Positions 29,088-35,504 of a DNA stretch of 64,000 bases are shown here, piece after piece (the first letter of the stretch is position 1; every line of letters begins with the position of its first letter). A program made the translations under genes and the position numbers. The stretch spans positions 1 through 64,000 of the forward strand of contig NZ_KB899979.1 in NCBI RefSeq assembly GCF_000378485.1, read 5' to 3'. Below the pieces are notes generated by a model. That model did no database searches. It was not told the origin of the DNA and was given only the letters and a program-made list of their open reading frames with translations. The stretch is from Flavobacterium rivuli WB 3.3-2 = DSM 21788 (GTDB taxonomy: Bacteria > Bacteroidota > Bacteroidia > Flavobacteriales > Flavobacteriaceae).

Positions 29088-29948
29088 TTAGATTAATATA
29101 TCTGCAGCTTTAAAAACTTCTTTTAGCCGCACACCTTTATCGGTATGCTGTACCGTTATAACCTCGTGGTGTGCATCATGCCCCAATAGTAAATAATGGC
29201 CAGTATCTGCTGCTGCATTCAAAAATTTTGCCTTTTCGTCTATAGTTAAAAGCGGGCGGGTGTCATACCCCATAACATACGGTAGCGGAATGTGGCCCGT
29301 GGTAGGCAGCATATCGGCAGCAAAAATTATGGTCTTGCCGTTATACTCTATCTGCGGTAGCATTTGCTTTTCGGTATGGCCGTCGGCAAAAAATATCCCA
29401 AATCCCAGTTCGCTTTTCTCAACAAAATCGCCATTCGGGCGTTGTACAAATTTTAGCTGTCCGCTTTCCTGCATTGGTAAAATATTCTCCGATAAAAAAG
29501 AAGCTTTCTCGCGGGCATTAGGTTTGGTTGCCCATTCCCAATGGTTATCGTTCGTCCAGAAATGCGCATTTTTAAAAGCCGGTTCATAGCCCGTGCGGTC
29601 TTTGTTCCACTGTATGGCACCGCCCACATGGTCAAAATGCAGGTGGGTTAAAAAAACATCGGTAACATCGTCGCGGCTAAAGCCATGTTGCGCCAGCGAT
29701 TTATCTATAGAGTGGTCACCCCATAGCGAGTAGTACCCAAAAAACTTATCGCCCTGCTTGTTGCCCATGCCAGTATCTATCAGGGTAAGGCGGTCGCCAT
29801 CTTCTACCAGCAGGCAGCGTGCGGCCATATCTATCAGGTTATTACTATCGGCAGGGTTGGTTTTGTTCCATATAGTTTTTGGCACCACGCCAAACATAGC
29901 GCCACCGTCGAGCTTAAAATTGCCGCTCTCTATTGTATATAATTTCAT
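29088..29948 (-). CDS. MBL-fold metallo-hydrolase
   Basis: A 286-residue beta-lactamase-fold hydrolase. The metal site motif HLHFDHVGG (HxHxDH) is intact, followed by DGHTEKQM and the late LLGHDAHH motif. The pattern fits the lactonase-like branch of the family, but the substrate cannot be read from sequence. No signal peptide is present, so it is cytoplasmic. It is divergent from the suf operon. Confidence 0.85.
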   Translation of the reverse strand: MKLYTIESGNFKLDGGAMFGVVPKTIWNKTNPADSNNLIDMAARCLLVEDGDRLTLIDTGMGNKQGDKFFGYYSLWGDHSIDKSLAQHGFSRDDVTDVFLTHLHFDHVGGAIQWNKDRTGYEPAFKNAHFWTNDNHWEWATKPNAREKASFLSENILPMQESGQLKFVQRPNGDFVEKSELGFGIFFADGHTEKQMLPQIEYNGKTIIFAADMLPTTGHIPLPYVMGYDTRPLLTIDEKAKFLNAAADTGHYLLLGHDAHHEVITVQHTDKGVRLKEVFKAADILI

Positions 29949-30044
29949 AGTTAAAGATTTGCACAGCCAAATTAACTATTTTAAAGTAAACTATTGGTAT
30001 AAGTATTGCTTATACTGCTATATGTATAAATAAGACACCTATTA

Positions 30045-30073
30045 TTGCTTTACGCAAAAATGTGGTATCTTTG
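30045..30073 (+). promoter_or_regulatory. Promoter of the suf operon
   Basis: TTG at 30045-30047 and TATCTTTG at 30066-30073 are 18 bases apart, a close fit to the Bacteroidota -33/-7 consensus. The first suf gene starts at 30110. Confidence 0.7.
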
Positions 30074-30109
30074 CACTAAATTTAGACTAATTTTTAAAGT
30101 AACTGAATT

Positions 30110-30439
30110 ATGATAAAAGTATCTGATACAGCAAAAAAGAGAGCCGTCATGCTTATGGAGGATGAAGGTTTTAATGCCGTTACCGATTATATACGAGTAG
30201 GTGTTAAAAGTGGTGGATGTTCAGGCTTGTCATACGAACTGAAATTTGACAATGCGCTTAGCGAAACTGATAAAGTATTTGAAGACAATGGCGTTAAGAT
30301 AGCCGTAGACAAAAAAAGCGTATTGTACCTTGCCGGTACCGTGCTGGAGTTTAGTGGTGGCCTTAACGGTAAAGGCTTTGTTTTTAATAACCCAAATGCC
30401 AGCAGGACCTGCGGGTGTGGGGAGAGTTTTTCACTGTAA
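30110..30439 (+). CDS. HesB/IscA-family Fe-S carrier (A-type, SufA-like)
   Basis: A 109-residue A-type carrier with all three conserved cysteines: SGGCSGLSYEL and the C-terminal CGCG pair. It accepts Fe-S clusters from the SufBCD scaffold and hands them to target enzymes. Its position as the first gene of the suf operon agrees with this role. Confidence 0.93.
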   Translation: MIKVSDTAKKRAVMLMEDEGFNAVTDYIRVGVKSGGCSGLSYELKFDNALSETDKVFEDNGVKIAVDKKSVLYLAGTVLEFSGGLNGKGFVFNNPNASRTCGCGESFSL

Positions 30440-30591
30440 AGTTTAACGTTTAGGGTTTCAGGTTTAAAGTTGTTTAAGGCCTGAAAATTAAACCCGCAAT
30501 GTTTATCCATAATTAACACGTTATTTCAGTACTGTTTTGTGTTTGAGTAAGCAACCTTAAACTTTAAACTTTAAACCTGGAACAAAAGAAG
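30440..30591. repeat. Heptamer-type repeat spacer between HesB and sufB
   Basis: The spacer opens with GTTTAACGTTTAGGGTTT-like heptads and closes with CCTTAAACTTTAAACTTTAAACC-like heptads, which are mutually complementary. The RNA could fold back on itself. The same pattern recurs in the next three spacers of the operon. Confidence 0.7.
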
Positions 30592-32040
30592 ATGAGTAAA
30601 TACACAGAAGATGATTTAAAGATCGAACTCGAAACTAAAGAGTATGAGTACGGTTTTTATACTGATATAGAGAGTGATACCTTTCCTAATGGGCTAAGCG
30701 AAGACATTGTGCGTGCCCTTTCTTTAAAAAAGGAAGAACCGCAATGGATGACCGACTGGCGCCTTGAGGCTTATCGCGCATGGGTGCAAATGACTGAGCC
30801 TGAATGGGCAAACGTGCATTATGTTAAGCCCGATTTTCAGGCAATATCCTATTACTCTGCCCCTTTAAAAAAGGCAAAGTATGAGAGCCTGGATGAGGTA
30901 GACCCTGAGTTGCTTGAAACGTTTAAGAAACTGGGCATCTCTATAGACGAGCAAAAAATGCTGAGCGGCGTAGCGGTAGACATCGTTATGGACTCGGTAT
31001 CGGTTGCCACGACATTTAAAAAGACGCTTGCCGAAAAAGGCATTATATTCTGCTCTATATCTGAGGCTATTAAAGAGCACCCGGAACTGGTACAGAAATA
31101 TCTTGGCAGCGTAGTACCGCAAAGAGACAACTTTTATGCAGCACTTAATGCCGCCGTTTTTAGCGACGGTTCGTTTTGCTACATCCCTAAAGGGGTGCGT
31201 TGCCCTATGGAATTAAGCACGTACTTCCGTATTAACCAGGCAGGAACAGGCCAGTTTGAGCGTACGCTTGTAGTGGCAGATGAAGGTAGTTATGTTAGCT
31301 ACCTTGAAGGCTGTACTGCTCCAAGCCGCGACGAGAACCAACTCCATGCCGCCGTGGTAGAGCTTATTGCCCTTGACGATGCCGAGATTAAATACAGCAC
31401 CGTGCAAAACTGGTTCCCCGGTAATAAAGAGGGTAAAGGCGGTGTATATAACTTTGTAACCAAACGCGGTATTTGCGAGAAAAACGCAAAAATATCATGG
31501 ACACAAGTAGAAACCGGTAGTGCCGTTACCTGGAAATACCCAAGCTGCATACTTAAAGGAGATAACTCTGTAGGAGAATTTTATTCTATCGCGGTTACCA
31601 ATAACTTTCAGCAGGCAGATACGGGTACTAAAATGATACACCTTGGCAAGAATACCAGGAGTACCATTATATCTAAAGGTATATCGGCAGGAAAATCGCA
31701 AAACAGCTATCGTGGCCTTGTGCAAATAGGCAGCCGTGCAGATAATGCACGTAACTTCTCGCAGTGCGACTCATTACTTATGGGCAACAATTGTGGGGCG
31801 CATACGTTCCCGTACATAGAATCTAAAAATACATCGGCTAAAATAGAGCACGAGGCTACGACAAGTAAAATTGGCGAAGACCAGGTGTTTTACTGCAACC
31901 AGCGTGGTATCCCTACAGAGAAAGCTATTGCCCTTATTGTAAATGGCTTTAGCAAAGAGGTACTTAATAAACTACCTATGGAGTTTGCTGTAGAAGCGCA
32001 AAAATTGCTGGAGATAAGCTTAGAGGGAAGTGTGGGATAA
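30592..32040 (+). CDS. sufB: Fe-S cluster assembly scaffold SufB
   Basis: The 482 residues match SufB throughout: [41 protein letters not shown] and the C-terminal [11 protein letters not shown]. It forms the SufBC2D complex on which new clusters are built. The length is normal. The next gene is a four-helix-bundle gene rather than sufC. Confidence 0.97.
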
Positions 32041-32101
32041 TAATTTGTTCAAGGTTTAAGGTTTAAAGTTCTACTCTAACCCTAAATGTTTCTTTTGAAT
32101 A
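32041..32101. repeat. Heptamer repeat spacer before the four-helix-bundle gene
   Basis: Contains AAGGTTTAAGGTTTAAAG (about 32048-32066), the forward heptad orientation. The complementary CTTTAAACCTTAAACCTTAAAC run stands after the gene at about 32494-32517. Confidence 0.7.
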
Positions 32102-32491
32102 ATGGCTACAATAAAAAGATTCGAAGATTTAGAAATTTGGCAGGAAGCAAGATTATTGGCAAAAGAGATTCATTTGGTTTCTATTGGCACTGGTTTAAAA
32201 ACCGATTTCAAACTTCGTGATCAGATTAAAGCATCTTCTGGTTCAGTTATGGATAATATATCAGAAGGGTTTGAAAGAAATGGGAACATTGAATTTAGAC
32301 AGTTTTTATCAATAGCAAAAGGATCAGCCGGTGAAGCAAGATCACAATTATATAGAGTTTTAGATTTTGGATATATCAGTGAAGAGCAATTTATAGCTCT
32401 GAAAGAGAGATTTGAAAACTTAAGCGGGAAAATAAATAATTTTATAATCTATTTGAATAATAAGGATTTTAGGGGTACAAAGTTCCAATAG
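32102..32491 (+). CDS. Four-helix-bundle (23S rRNA IVP-type) protein
   Basis: A 129-residue all-helical protein of the S23/IVP family: [17 protein letters not shown] at the N-terminus, then [21 protein letters not shown] and [12 protein letters not shown]. Family members were first found in intervening sequences of 23S rRNA genes and also occur as free-standing genes in Bacteroidota. The biochemical role is unknown. Here the gene stands between sufB and sufC and is bracketed by inverted heptamer runs, which suggests a mobile or recently inserted unit. Confidence 0.88.
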
Positions 32492-32527
32492 GCAACTTTA
32501 AACCTTAAACCTTAAACAAAAAAACTA
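32492..32527. repeat. Heptamer repeat spacer before sufC
   Basis: The 36-base spacer is almost wholly CTTTAAACCTTAAACCTTAAAC, the reverse complement of the run before the four-helix-bundle gene. Confidence 0.7.
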
Positions 32528-33274
32528 ATGTTAAGTATAAAAAACCTACACGCTCGCGTAGAAGACAAAGATATTTTAAGAGGTATTAACCTTGAGGTTA
32601 AAGCCGGTGAAGTACATGCCATAATGGGTCCTAACGGGTCTGGTAAAAGTACATTATCGTCTGTAATTGCCGGAAACGAAAATTATGAAGTAACCGATGG
32701 TAATATTTACCTTGAAGGCGAAGATATCAGTGAGTTTGCCCCCGAAGAAAGGGCACACAAGGGTGTTTTCCTTTCGTTTCAGTATCCGGTAGAAATTCCC
32801 GGAGTATCTGTAACTAACTTTATGAGAACCGCAATTAACGAAAGCCGTAAAGCCAATGGCCTTGAAGAAATGCCGGCTAACGAAATGCTGAAACTTATCC
32901 GCGAGAAAAGTGAGCTTTTAGAGATAGACCGTAAATTCTTATCGCGCTCGCTTAACGAAGGTTTTTCGGGTGGCGAAAAGAAACGTAACGAGATCTTCCA
33001 GATGGCAATGCTGGAGCCTAAACTGGCTATTCTTGATGAAACCGACTCAGGGCTTGATATTGATGCACTTCGTATTGTGGCAAATGGTGTAAACAAACTA
33101 CGCAGCGAAAACAACGCAGTTATTGTTATTACCCACTACCAAAGGCTGCTTGACTATATTGTTCCAGACTTTGTACACGTACTTTACAATGGTAAAATTG
33201 TAAAAAGCGGTGGTAAAGAACTGGCTTACGAACTTGAAGAAAAAGGTTACGACTGGATAAGGTCGGAAAATTAA
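32528..33274 (+). CDS. sufC: SufC ATPase
   Basis: A 248-residue ABC ATPase with Walker A GPNGSGKST, the SufC-type signature FSGGEKKRNEI and Walker B LAILDETDSGLDIDAL. It powers conformational change in SufBC2D during cluster assembly. It is soluble and not a transporter ATPase. The spacer on either side carries heptamer repeats. Confidence 0.97.
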   Translation: MLSIKNLHARVEDKDILRGINLEVKAGEVHAIMGPNGSGKSTLSSVIAGNENYEVTDGNIYLEGEDISEFAPEERAHKGVFLSFQYPVEIPGVSVTNFMRTAINESRKANGLEEMPANEMLKLIREKSELLEIDRKFLSRSLNEGFSGGEKKRNEIFQMAMLEPKLAILDETDSGLDIDALRIVANGVNKLRSENNAVIVITHYQRLLDYIVPDFVHVLYNGKIVKSGGKELAYELEEKGYDWIRSEN

Positions 33275-33373
33275 TATTTGTTTAAGGTTTAAAGTTTAAA
33301 GTTGCTATTATAACGGTTTACCGTTCCTCAACTTTAAACGTTAAACATTGAACTTTAAACAAACTAATGAATA
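33275..33373. repeat. Heptamer repeat spacer between sufC and sufD
   Basis: The spacer opens with GTTTAAGGTTTAAAGTTTAAAG (about 33279-33300) and closes with CAACTTTAAACGTTAAAC...CTTTAAAC (about 33328-33360). The two halves are complementary, so a long imperfect hairpin with the middle as loop is possible. Confidence 0.75.
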
Positions 33374-34690
33374 ATGGATTTAAAAGAAAAACTATTATCT
33401 TCTTTTATAGCTTTTGAAGAGCGTATAGATGTAAACTCTGATTTGCACAACGTTCGTACAGAGGCTTTAAAGAATTTCGAAAATAAAGGCTTCCCTACTA
33501 AAAAAGAAGAAGCCTGGAAATACACATCGCTAAACGCCGTTCTTAAAAACGATTTTAGCGTATTCCCTAAAGAGGACAGTGCTATAAATTACCCTGATGT
33601 AAAAAAATACTTTTTGCACGAAATAGATACTTTTAAACTGGTGTTTATAGACGGTGTGTTTAGCTCATTCCTGTCTTCTACCACACACGATGGGCAGGAT
33701 ATCTGCTTAATGTCTTCGGCATTAACAAAGCCTAAGTATAAAGAGGTTATAGATACCTATTTTAATAAAATAGCAAATACAGATGATAGCCTTACCTCGC
33801 TAAATACAGCTTTTGCCAGTGAGGGTGCCTTTATAAACATCCCTAAAAGCAAGATTGCCGATAAGCCTATCGAGATCATGTATTTTTCTACCGGTAACGA
33901 GGCTGCCCTTATGGTACAGCCGCGCAACCTTATTATTGTGGGCGAAAATGCACAGGTACAAATTATAGAGAGGCACCAAAGCCTTAATGGTAATCCTGTT
34001 TTAACGAATAGCGTTACCGAAATTTTTGCACAGGAAAGTTCTATTGTAGATTACTACAAGATACAAAACGACGTGCTTACTGCAAACCTTGTAGACAATA
34101 CTTACATTGCCCAAAAAGGTAAAAGCAACGCATCTGTACACACCTTCTCTTTTGGAGGTAACATAACAAGGAACAACCTTAATTTTTACCACCAGGGTGA
34201 GCGTATTGAGAGCACCCTTAAAGGTATTACACTTATAGGCGATAAGCAACTTGTAGACCACTACACGCTGGTACGCCACGCTACACCTAACTGCGAGAGC
34301 CACCAAAATTATAAAGGTATTTTTGATGGTAATGCAACGGGGGTATTTAACGGAAAAATATATGTTGAGAAAGAAGCCCAGAAAACGGATGCTTTTCAGC
34401 AGAATAACAATATATTGATAAGTGAGAAAGCTACCATTAATGCAAAACCTCAGTTAGAGATCTTTGCTGATGATGTAAAGTGTTCTCACGGCTGTACAGT
34501 AGGCCAGCTCGATGAGAGCGCTATGTTTTACATGCAAAGCCGTGGTATTCCTAAAAAAGAAGCTAAGGCTTTACTTATGTATGCTTTTAGCAACGAAGTT
34601 ATAGAAAGTATAAAAATACCGGAACTTAAAGCACGTATTACAAAACTTATTGCCTCTAAACTTGGTGTAAATATAGGCTTCGATTTGTAA
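33374..34690 (+). CDS. sufD: Fe-S cluster assembly protein SufD
   Basis: A 438-residue SufB paralogue with the N-terminal PTKKEEAWKYTSL motif and the C-terminal KCSHGCTVGQLDESAMFYMQSRGI motif. It pairs with SufB in the scaffold. The last residues (LGVNIGFDL) are typical of SufD. A terminator follows, so sufS and sufE are not part of this operon. Confidence 0.96.
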   Translation: MDLKEKLLSSFIAFEERIDVNSDLHNVRTEALKNFENKGFPTKKEEAWKYTSLNAVLKNDFSVFPKEDSAINYPDVKKYFLHEIDTFKLVFIDGVFSSFLSSTTHDGQDICLMSSALTKPKYKEVIDTYFNKIANTDDSLTSLNTAFASEGAFINIPKSKIADKPIEIMYFSTGNEAALMVQPRNLIIVGENAQVQIIERHQSLNGNPVLTNSVTEIFAQESSIVDYYKIQNDVLTANLVDNTYIAQKGKSNASVHTFSFGGNITRNNLNFYHQGERIESTLKGITLIGDKQLVDHYTLVRHATPNCESHQNYKGIFDGNATGVFNGKIYVEKEAQKTDAFQQNNNILISEKATINAKPQLEIFADDVKCSHGCTVGQLDESAMFYMQSRGIPKKEAKALLMYAFSNEVIESIKIPELKARITKLIASKLGVNIGFDL

Positions 34691-34716
34691 ATATCCGGCT
34701 TAAATATAGCAATACA

Positions 34717-34746
34717 TAAAGTGCCTCTATACAGAGGCATTTTTTA
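34717..34746. terminator. Bidirectional terminator after sufD
   Basis: A TGCCTCT/AGAGGCA stem (34722-34728 with 34733-34739) with A tract before and T tract after. It can stop the suf transcript and the convergent methyltransferase transcript. Confidence 0.8.
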
Positions 34747-34763
34747 TGTATTATATGGAGTAG

Positions 34764-35504
34764 TTATTCTTCGGTTTTTTTTGCTATGCAAAATGTGCTT
34801 ATGCCAAAAGGAAATGAGAACAATCGCAGCATTTTATTTTCTAATAGTAAAAGATTTAGCATTGCAGTGTTTACAAAACTTTTGCCCATTGCAATATCGC
34901 TTACCGCAGATTTGTCTTTTTTTAATTTACCGCTTACTTTTCTAAACAGGAATACCGGGGTAAACAGGAAAAAATTCCAGTACCCTGATTTAACAACTTT
35001 AAGGTTTTGCTCTTTAAATCGGGCTTTCAGTTCAGCTTTTGTATACCTGCGGTAGTGCATATTAATATCATCATGATAACTCCATAAAGACATAAATGCC
35101 GGAACAAAAACATACATTGTGCCCCCTTTATTTAAAAGGGTTTTCCAGTTTGCAAGGGCCTTGCTATCGTGCTCAAGGTGCTCAAGGCAGTCTGATGCAA
35201 TTATAATATCAAATTTTTGGGTAAGTGTAATATCCTGCCCATCCATTACATAAGAATTTTTAATACCGTTAGCCTTACTGTTCTTTATTGCCTGTTCACT
35301 AATATCAATCCCGTAAAGGTTGTTAATTGCAAAGCCAAGTTTTTCTGCATCTTTAAGAAAAACTCCCGATGAGCATCCAATATCTAATATTTTACTGTCT
35401 TTAGGGGCATTTTTAATCAGGTCTAATAAATAATCACGCCTTGATTTAAACCACCAATGATCTGTTTCAACATCATGATATTGTTTTTCATAATCTTTTT
35501 GCAT
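34764..35504 (-). CDS. Class I SAM-dependent methyltransferase
   Basis: A 246-residue methyltransferase. Motif I reads ILDIGCSSGVFL (about 39-50), followed by LYGIDISEQAI and the IIASDCLEHLEH motif. A hydrophobic segment near 160-175 may give membrane contact. The type is usual among small-molecule or sugar/lipid-modifying methyltransferases in Bacteroidota. The substrate is unknown. It is convergent with sufD and divergent from the heme operon. Confidence 0.85.
   Translation of the reverse strand: MQKDYEKQYHDVETDHWWFKSRRDYLLDLIKNAPKDSKILDIGCSSGVFLKDAEKLGFAINNLYGIDISEQAIKNSKANGIKNSYVMDGQDITLTQKFDIIIASDCLEHLEHDSKALANWKTLLNKGGTMYVFVPAFMSLWSYHDDINMHYRRYTKAELKARFKEQNLKVVKSGYWNFFLFTPVFLFRKVSGKLKKDKSAVSDIAMGKSFVNTAMLNLLLLENKMLRLFSFPFGISTFCIAKKTEE

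Follow-up and report, generated by a model that had tools for sequence, protein, structure and literature searches.

What is a gene of the 23S rRNA intervening-sequence family doing in the middle of a suf operon, between two inverted arrays of heptads? The question is raised by the first 64,000 nt of contig NZ_KB899979.1 of Flavobacterium rivuli WB 3.3-2, a stretch that is called the window here. In it, heptads of the type TTTAAGG/TTTAAAG occur in inverted orientation in each of the four spacers between hesB and sufD and nowhere else. The initial annotation took the gene between sufB and sufC, which encodes a four-helix-bundle protein, to have been inserted into a repeat hairpin that was already present. 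Our analysis points in another direction. The gene and its arms look like one element, and we consider it probable that positions 32044-32520 form an intervening sequence (IVS)-like element in an mRNA operon, i.e. a PF05635 gene inside a 26-bp heptad stem, and that the other two suf hairpins are its solo, gene-less relatives.

A gene-bearing stem and two gene-less hairpins

The element has the same orientation as its neighbours and fills the space between the stop codon of sufB and the start codon of sufC. The features of the operon are listed below.

30110..30439, + strand: hesB/sufA-like gene, PF01521, 109 aa (gene call and Pfam)
30441..30471, + strand: 5' heptad arm of the hesB-sufB hairpin (GTTTAAC GTTTAGG GTTTCAG GTTTAAA GTT), partly paired with the 3' arm in the fold (Tandem Repeats Finder (TRF), pattern search)
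30553..30583, + strand: 3' heptad arm of the hesB-sufB hairpin, its end 8 nt 5' of the sufB start (repeat finding, TRF, fold)
30592..32040, + strand: sufB, 482 aa
32044..32070, + strand: 5' heptad arm of the element, directly 3' of the sufB stop (repeat finding, TRF, fold)
32102..32491, + strand: four-helix-bundle gene, 129 aa, PF05635/TIGR02436, 23S rRNA intervening-sequence protein (IVP) of the S23 family (profile matches, model)
32494..32520, + strand: 3' heptad arm of the element, directly 5' of the sufC start (repeat finding, TRF, fold)
32528..33274, + strand: sufC, 248 aa
33277..33303, + strand: 5' heptad arm of the sufC-sufD solo hairpin (repeat finding, TRF, fold)
33330..33363, + strand: 3' heptad arm of the sufC-sufD solo hairpin (repeat finding, TRF, fold)
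33374..34690, + strand: sufD, 438 aa

The arms that flank the IVP gene are 27 nt each, 96% complementary and 423 nt apart. Direct reading of 29400-35500 shows that arms of the GTTTAAR type stand directly 3' of stop codons and arms of the YTTAAAC type directly 5' of start codons. TRF places period-7 arrays at 30437-30471, 30553-30576, 32047-32070, 32494-32517, 33280-33303 and 33330-33360. These are six of its seven period-7 rows for the window, the seventh being a two-copy CACAGCT, and with their head-to-tail 7-nt units they classify as heptameric simple sequence repeats. Three units of GTTTAAR or YTTAAAC (≤3 mismatches) occur in the window only in the suf spacers, and a lag-7 array (≥16/21 identities at a shift of 7 nt) was found in 0 of the 23 other window spacers of 40-250 nt. 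The presence of heptads in each spacer, which the initial annotation had noted, is thus confirmed by direct reading, repeat finding and TRF. Its view that they can form RNA hairpins, and that the arms around the gene are the two halves of one hairpin, agrees with the predicted folds: the 487-nt sufB-sufC spacer, gene included, closes in a terminal 26-bp stem (z -3.6 versus shuffles), while the hesB-sufB and sufC-sufD spacers reach z values of -2.9 and -5.4. Rfam gave no match to a curated family apart from one far below its gathering score, 3' of sufD, and no rRNA match was obtained in 29900-34800.

The same repeat is abundant in the rest of the 4.49-Mb genome. The pattern GTTTAARGTTTAARGTT (≤2 mismatches) has 95 matches, 14 of them in these suf spacers, versus 18 for the reversed control. 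At 30 array sites of this genome, several of which overlap, inspection by eye shows the forward heptad after a stop codon and the reverse heptad before a start codon, on either strand, wherever the site is readable.

The 129-aa protein matches PF05635 (E 1.1e-30), the only family that Pfam assigns to it, and TIGR02436 (E 2.2e-26). An AlphaFold2 model computed from a 53-sequence alignment has a pLDDT of 91 and matches 2gsc (Xanthomonas campestris S23) and 2rld (Bacteroides, 'S23 ribosomal protein family'). W13, Q41, S48, N52, E55, G56, S75 and E78 are invariant in the 53 sequences. Purifying selection acts on the gene within its 129-aa set: the median dN/dS is 0.107 (range 0.03-0.48; 67 pairs with usable dS from 19 genes of 129 codons). 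A phage origin was rejected: the protein had no match in 50,697 phage records at 1e-5 and none in PHROGs at 0.1. A relative is reportedly a pentamer.

IVP genes and heptad arrays across genomes

Gene-less solo hairpins are common, heptamers have been called slippage-prone by others (PMC4679880 and PMC4692102, citing Mrazek et al.), and unrelated open reading frames (ORFs) sit between sufB and sufC in 22/61 operons examined below. All this agrees with a rival view close to that of the initial annotation, in which simple repeats born by slippage came to serve as hairpins in the processing or stability of mRNA, and a mobile IVP gene of separate origin landed there. The surroundings of other IVP genes argue for a closer bond. 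From 125 IVP ORFs we obtained 110 distinct loci, 109 of which had full flanks of 60 nt on each side. In these, sequence identity at lag 7 was 0.43 and 0.42 in the two flanks, and harmonics appeared at 14 and 21. Most other lags gave 0.27-0.33, although 1, 6, 8, 15 and 16 were also raised, and there was no lag-7 peak inside the ORF. The upstream flank is complementary to the downstream flank (score ≥24) at 56/110 IVP loci, versus 17/325 swapped pairs and 1/110 shuffled ones. An inverted repeat was found at 49/80 IVP genes and at 0/200 sampled control genes of IVP-rich genomes, and 29/80 IVP loci adjoin a lag-7 array compared with 39/473 other genes of such genomes; the 80 loci of this comparison, chosen as non-suf, still include at least six suf loci. 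With the suf loci counted, 98/105 IVP genes are co-oriented with both neighbours.

The sequence of the heptads is informative too. Among pairs of loci with different neighbours, the fraction with similar flanks (score ≥50) rises with the identity of the IVP proteins: 9/4243 pairs below 50%, 4/255 at 50-60%, 6/23 at 60-70%, 14/40 at 70-80% and 5/5 at 80-90%. The 25 alike pairs from 60% upwards come from few proteins and are not independent: L143, L145 or a member of the group L006, L147, L151 and L153 recurs in most of them. The type of heptad thus tends to go along with the IVP protein subfamily even where the neighbours differ. The idea of a host-specific repeat was not favoured, because one genome has, by eye, several heptad types at different IVP genes. 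In a common IVP lineage (many of L038-L067 and L185-L203) the heptads are replaced, also by eye, by octads of period 8, such as CTCAGCAA.

Arrays away from IVP genes follow the same line. We searched chunks of ≤20 kb, chosen by coordinate only and without any IVP ORF, for period-7 arrays (≥17/21). Class genomes counted as IVP-free when they had no PF05635 match at 1e-10. There were 0 arrays in 344 kb from 19 IVP-free genomes of the class versus 14 in 290 kb from 20 IVP-rich ones, the 14 coming from 8 genomes; arrays at other lags were alike in the two sets. Within the genus, two IVP-free genomes had 0 period-7 arrays in 240 kb (two chunks are shared with the class-wide set), five genomes with 1-2 IVP genes had 5 in 300 kb, and IVP-rich genomes with 8-12 genes had 16 in 300 kb: 10 in 200 kb for G032 and G036 (12 and 8 genes) and 6 in 100 kb for G096 and G054 (9 and 8). 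By ORF calling, 27/35 arrays from the three chunk sets and one small locus are intergenic, versus 14% of the sequence. Period-7 arrays elsewhere in the sampled genomes thus go with IVP gene content.

Copy numbers were counted at ≤1 mismatch over 101 genomes, with statistics that ignore relatedness. The median number of GTTTAAR copies is 33.5 in the 20 genomes with an IVP gene of the GTTT subfamily (a hand-picked set, ≥66% identity) versus 11 in the 81 without (p 5e-4). For AAAGTCR the medians are 14 in the 21 genomes with the AAGTC subfamily and 1 in the 80 without (p 6e-6), a p-value to be taken with care as this set, also picked by hand (40-48% identity), was fixed after the counts were known, with suf AAGTC flanks already seen in at least 11 of the 21 genomes. 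The crossed heptad/subfamily comparisons gave p 0.09 and 0.05. The reversed control TTGAAATTTGAAATTTG turned out to be a heptad repeat itself, with 145 matches in G063; therefore this control underrates the contrast. The 3.7-Mb genome G016 has 320 GTTTAAR and 406 AAAGTCR matches and IVP genes of both subfamilies, and should be a good model of a copy burst.

PF05635 genes are also linked with 7- or 8-nt arrays outside this group, in several phyla. Among 80 named loci, the best of at least 585 confirmed ones, 28/80 have an array at lag 7, 21/80 at lag 8 and 46/80 at either, compared with 0 to 2 at lags 4-6 and 9-12; outside Bacteroidota the numbers are 10/24 for lag 7 and 4/24 for lag 8. Judged by record titles, these named loci include Ruminococcus, Clostridiaceae, Acidobacteriales, Deltaproteobacteria, Thiobacillus, Nitrospirae, Omnitrophota, Elusimicrobia and SAR324, many of them metagenome bins, and eight of the 80 IVP genes are broken within the matched stretch. 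About half of the sampled IVP genes, from several phyla, are thus flanked by period-7 or period-8 arrays.

An IVP relative was found on 25 plasmid records, 23 of them cyanobacterial by name. In the 14 that were opened (13 cyanobacterial), nine loci have an array at lag 7, three at lag 8 and one at lag 6, with pairs such as GGGAGTA/CTCCCTA and GGGAACA/TGTTCCC. In 3/14 plasmid loci, all cyanobacterial (L405, L408 and L412), the IVP gene lies inside a cas operon, twice between cas6 and cas4 and once between cas10 and cmr3. A '23S rRNA IVP' is named alongside CRISPR-linked proteins in a figure legend of PMC10910872, and the link between IVP genes and heptads may explain its presence in that figure.

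A heptamer known from the literature was followed as well. TAACTGA direct repeats are described in Beggiatoaceae, Cyanobacteria and Bacteroidetes, often just 5' of start codons (PMC4679880). We found TAACTGA triplets or longer arrays in 18/395 Bacteroidota genomes, and in two of them, G329 and G510, the array is directly beside a PF05635 gene. An IVP match (1e-8) is present in 13/18 of these genomes. We claim no enrichment and only the two adjacent cases, because 93/119 genomes of the class have an IVP anyway (1e-10). At L348 the TAACTGA array extends into the next ORF's start codon (TAACTGATGAG); the ATG thus seems to be supplied by the repeat.

A number of observations weigh against a tie between IVP genes and heptads. 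No lag-7 or lag-8 array was found at 34/80 of the named loci and, at the threshold used, at 36/80 IVP loci of the control comparison, where 39/473 other genes do adjoin a lag-7 array; the latter is predicted by solo hairpins, but any repeat would predict it as well. Thirteen of the flank-alike pairs have proteins with <60% identity. In G007, G078, G036 and G022 GTTTAAR is abundant although no close gene of the GTTT subfamily is present, the IVP-free G073 has 8 GTTTAAR matches, and the counts are not independent because the genomes are related. The long heptad arrays of plasmid locus L412 are direct and not inverted, L411 and L417 have none, and 5/18 genomes with TAACTGA arrays lack an IVP match (one is 80% and one 87% complete). 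Lastly, a search for IVP fragments within ±500 nt of the 30 array loci of the window's own genome gave matches at three loci only, all of which include the window gene itself. The idea that solo hairpins are relics of deletion was rejected, as no IVP relic was seen away from that gene; either simple deletion did not give rise to the solo hairpins, or their loops decay fast.

Even so, separate origins for heptads and gene by slippage and landing appear unlikely to us. Against them speak the tendency of the heptad type to go with the IVP subfamily, both between loci and between genomes, the absence of period-7 arrays from the sampled chunks of IVP-free genomes, in which other periods are not depleted, and the like build of IVP arms in distant phyla.

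suf operons of relatives

SufC was found in 99/101 genomes of the genus, and the 60 best-match regions together with the window gave 61 operons. With the window included, an IVP gene is present between hesB and sufB in 5/58, between sufB and sufC in 4/61 and between sufC and sufD in 22/60 operons; one species has two. On a tree of SufB+SufC this requires at least 5, 4 and 13 changes, respectively, counts that cannot tell gain from loss or exchange and come from a tree with 27/57 inner branches drawn open. The IVP genes between hesB and sufB and between sufC and sufD are mostly flanked, by eye, by arrays of other heptad types, and 13/30 of the suf IVP loci pass the lag-7 test.

In ORF-free spacers of 40-250 nt a lag-7 array (≥16/21) is present in 23/31 cases between sufC and sufD, 8/18 between sufB and sufC and 2/43 between hesB and sufB, where 5/43 pass at lag 8. 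Because only these 2/43 pass lag 7, the hesB-sufB spacer is not generally a heptad hairpin. In four species (L098, L101, L122 and L125) it contains, in place of heptads, a different inverted repeat that is GGGGGTTAGGGGGC-like at both ends.

The initial annotation had predicted that relatives without the IVP gene should have one continuous heptamer hairpin between sufB and sufC, and that heptad-free spacers in such relatives would speak against it. The outcome is mixed. Of 57 operons with no IVP gene at this place, 15 have spacers <40 nt in which no heptad array is seen by eye, 22 have other ORFs and 18 are ORF-free over 40-250 nt, eight of these last with the expected array. In the window's own clade of the SufB+SufC tree, four of six gene-less species (L069, L070, L072 and L077) have 25-36 nt and no heptads between sufB and sufC, and the other two have other ORFs; gene-less hairpins nevertheless exist in relatives. 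Across the operons L068-L127 this spacer accepts several kinds of gene, and the ORFs in it are often of ~90 and ~162 aa.

The insertion of the gene into a pre-existing, unrelated hairpin is not supported as stated. It is disfavoured because flank heptads tend to match between alike IVP proteins despite different neighbours, because IVP genes also occupy the hesB-sufB and sufC-sufD spacers, and because IVP genes of other phyla often have arms of 7- or 8-nt units. At any single site the hairpin may still have come first and the gene later.

Could the hairpins be kept by the host as regulators that set the dosage of SufB, SufC and SufD through segmental mRNA decay, the element having been co-opted? 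They span whole stop-to-start spacers and recur within one operon, lag-7 arrays are frequent between sufC and sufD (the 23/31 given above), and the stems remain complementary though the heptads vary between species. A regulator of this kind is hard to reconcile with the high turnover of the arrays: near-identical species differ in their spacer versions, and one near-identical loop has both arms in L084, one arm in L091 and none in L090. Other relatives manage with 17-36 nt between sufB and sufC. We regard this explanation as quite improbable. Least probable is a third rival, in which homologous recombination within the conserved suf genes carries spacers as cassettes from one species to another and the patchiness reflects exchange and not transposition: this would explain unrelated sufC-sufD spacer versions in species with nearly identical SufB and SufC, but neither like-heptad IVP subfamilies between other genes (L006 with L151 and L153) nor the genome-wide link of arrays with IVP genes.

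The reading of 32044-32520 as an IVS-like element with solo relatives allows a mechanism to be outlined. Each suf stem would be a double-stranded site that RNase III could cleave, as reported for the Coxiella 23S IVS (PMC4990558), and the cuts would split the suf message into hesB, sufB, IVP, sufC and sufD segments. The splitting should do little harm because the arms sit between stop and start codons. The IVP protein would bind its own heptad arms and might help the element and the solo hairpins to spread or persist. The period of 7 may come from slippage, from copying by a partner enzyme or from the spacing preference of a ring-shaped protein.

We put forward only tentatively, and with the chances rather against it, a wider proposal. 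PF05635 proteins could be the partner that acts in trans in a widespread and as yet undescribed kind of genetic element, in which each subfamily binds, or has a partner enzyme copy, its own 7- or 8-nt repeat and so writes or maintains inverted intergenic heptad hairpins across bacteria; the heptamers of this genus, Cyanobacteria, Xanthomonas and Beggiatoaceae and the 23S rRNA IVS would then be products of one system.

In the link between IVP genes and heptads as such, two old puzzles meet, namely the abundance of intergenic heptamer repeats and the role of the S23/IVP protein, for which structures are solved and no function is named in the papers we met. Should this link hold, a large class of intergenic repeats would find its explanation in a gene family that already has a name, and would be open to a direct genetic test.

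Comparison with known repeats and elements

A published link between PF05635/S23 genes and heptamer arrays was not found in the Creative Commons-licensed literature of PubMed Central, save for a remark on Coxiella; this is a weak negative. Intergenic heptamers are described for Xanthomonas (GGGAATC) and Nostoc (GGGGATT) in a paper focused on G-quadruplexes, with 70 convergent GGGAATC pairs in one Xanthomonas strain and an ORF-proximal placement that depends on the strand (PMC4692102). As described there, they resemble the suf arrays in having period 7, in being intergenic and, in Xanthomonas, often in inverted pairs, and in that the strand is set by the side of the ORF. PMC4692102 does not mention the S23/IVP gene: the terms '23S', 'four helix' and 'XCC0516' do not occur in its text. 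The TAACTGA repeats are like the suf arrays in being heptamer arrays near start codons. Their author raised the idea that a protein which binds the repeats might be a mobile element; in contrast to our reading, the candidate binders in PMC4679880 are the S1, Csp and Csr families and not PF05635.

The IVP protein resembles Avd of diversity-generating retroelements in its fold by Foldseek, although the E-values are not convincing: 4dwl gave TM 0.72/0.85 and a probability of 1.00 at a non-significant E of 0.08, and 8ub7 gave TM 0.69/0.80 and a probability of 0.99 at E 0.57. This likeness of PF05635 has also been remarked in PMC10053308. Unlike Avd, the window IVP has suf genes as neighbours and no reverse transcriptase beside it; the genome's sole match to a reverse transcriptase (PF00078) lies on a different contig (L324, G000:C4:163913-164554).

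Repetitive extragenic palindromes with their associated transposases (REP/RAYT) and miniature inverted-repeat transposable elements (MITEs), which have a cognate Y1/HUH or DDE transposase, consist of many short palindromic intergenic copies that are tied to a trans-acting protein. The heptad hairpins resemble them in number and build and apparently also in their link to such a protein. They differ in that the IVP protein shows PF05635 alone in Pfam and no transposase domain; the genome itself was not searched for transposases.

A close counterpart is the 23S IVS of Coxiella burnetii, which has an S23 ORF, a 28-bp stem and a total length of 428-444 nt, as well as three tandem heptamers (GACAGAT) and a degenerate one 5' of the ORF; it is cut by RNase III in vitro, and its ORF is reported to be under reductive evolution (PMC4990558). 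The suf element likewise has a PF05635-type ORF and terminal inverted repeats in one long stem, here of 26 bp in 477 nt, and in both cases heptamers adjoin the ORF. It differs from the Coxiella IVS in that its place is an mRNA operon, where it fills the gap from a stop codon to a start codon, and not a 23S rRNA helix, that its gene is under purifying selection, and that solo gene-less hairpins are found elsewhere in the genome. If the link between IVP genes and heptads holds, the fragmentation of 23S rRNA by an IVS would be one case of a wider habit in mRNA operons.

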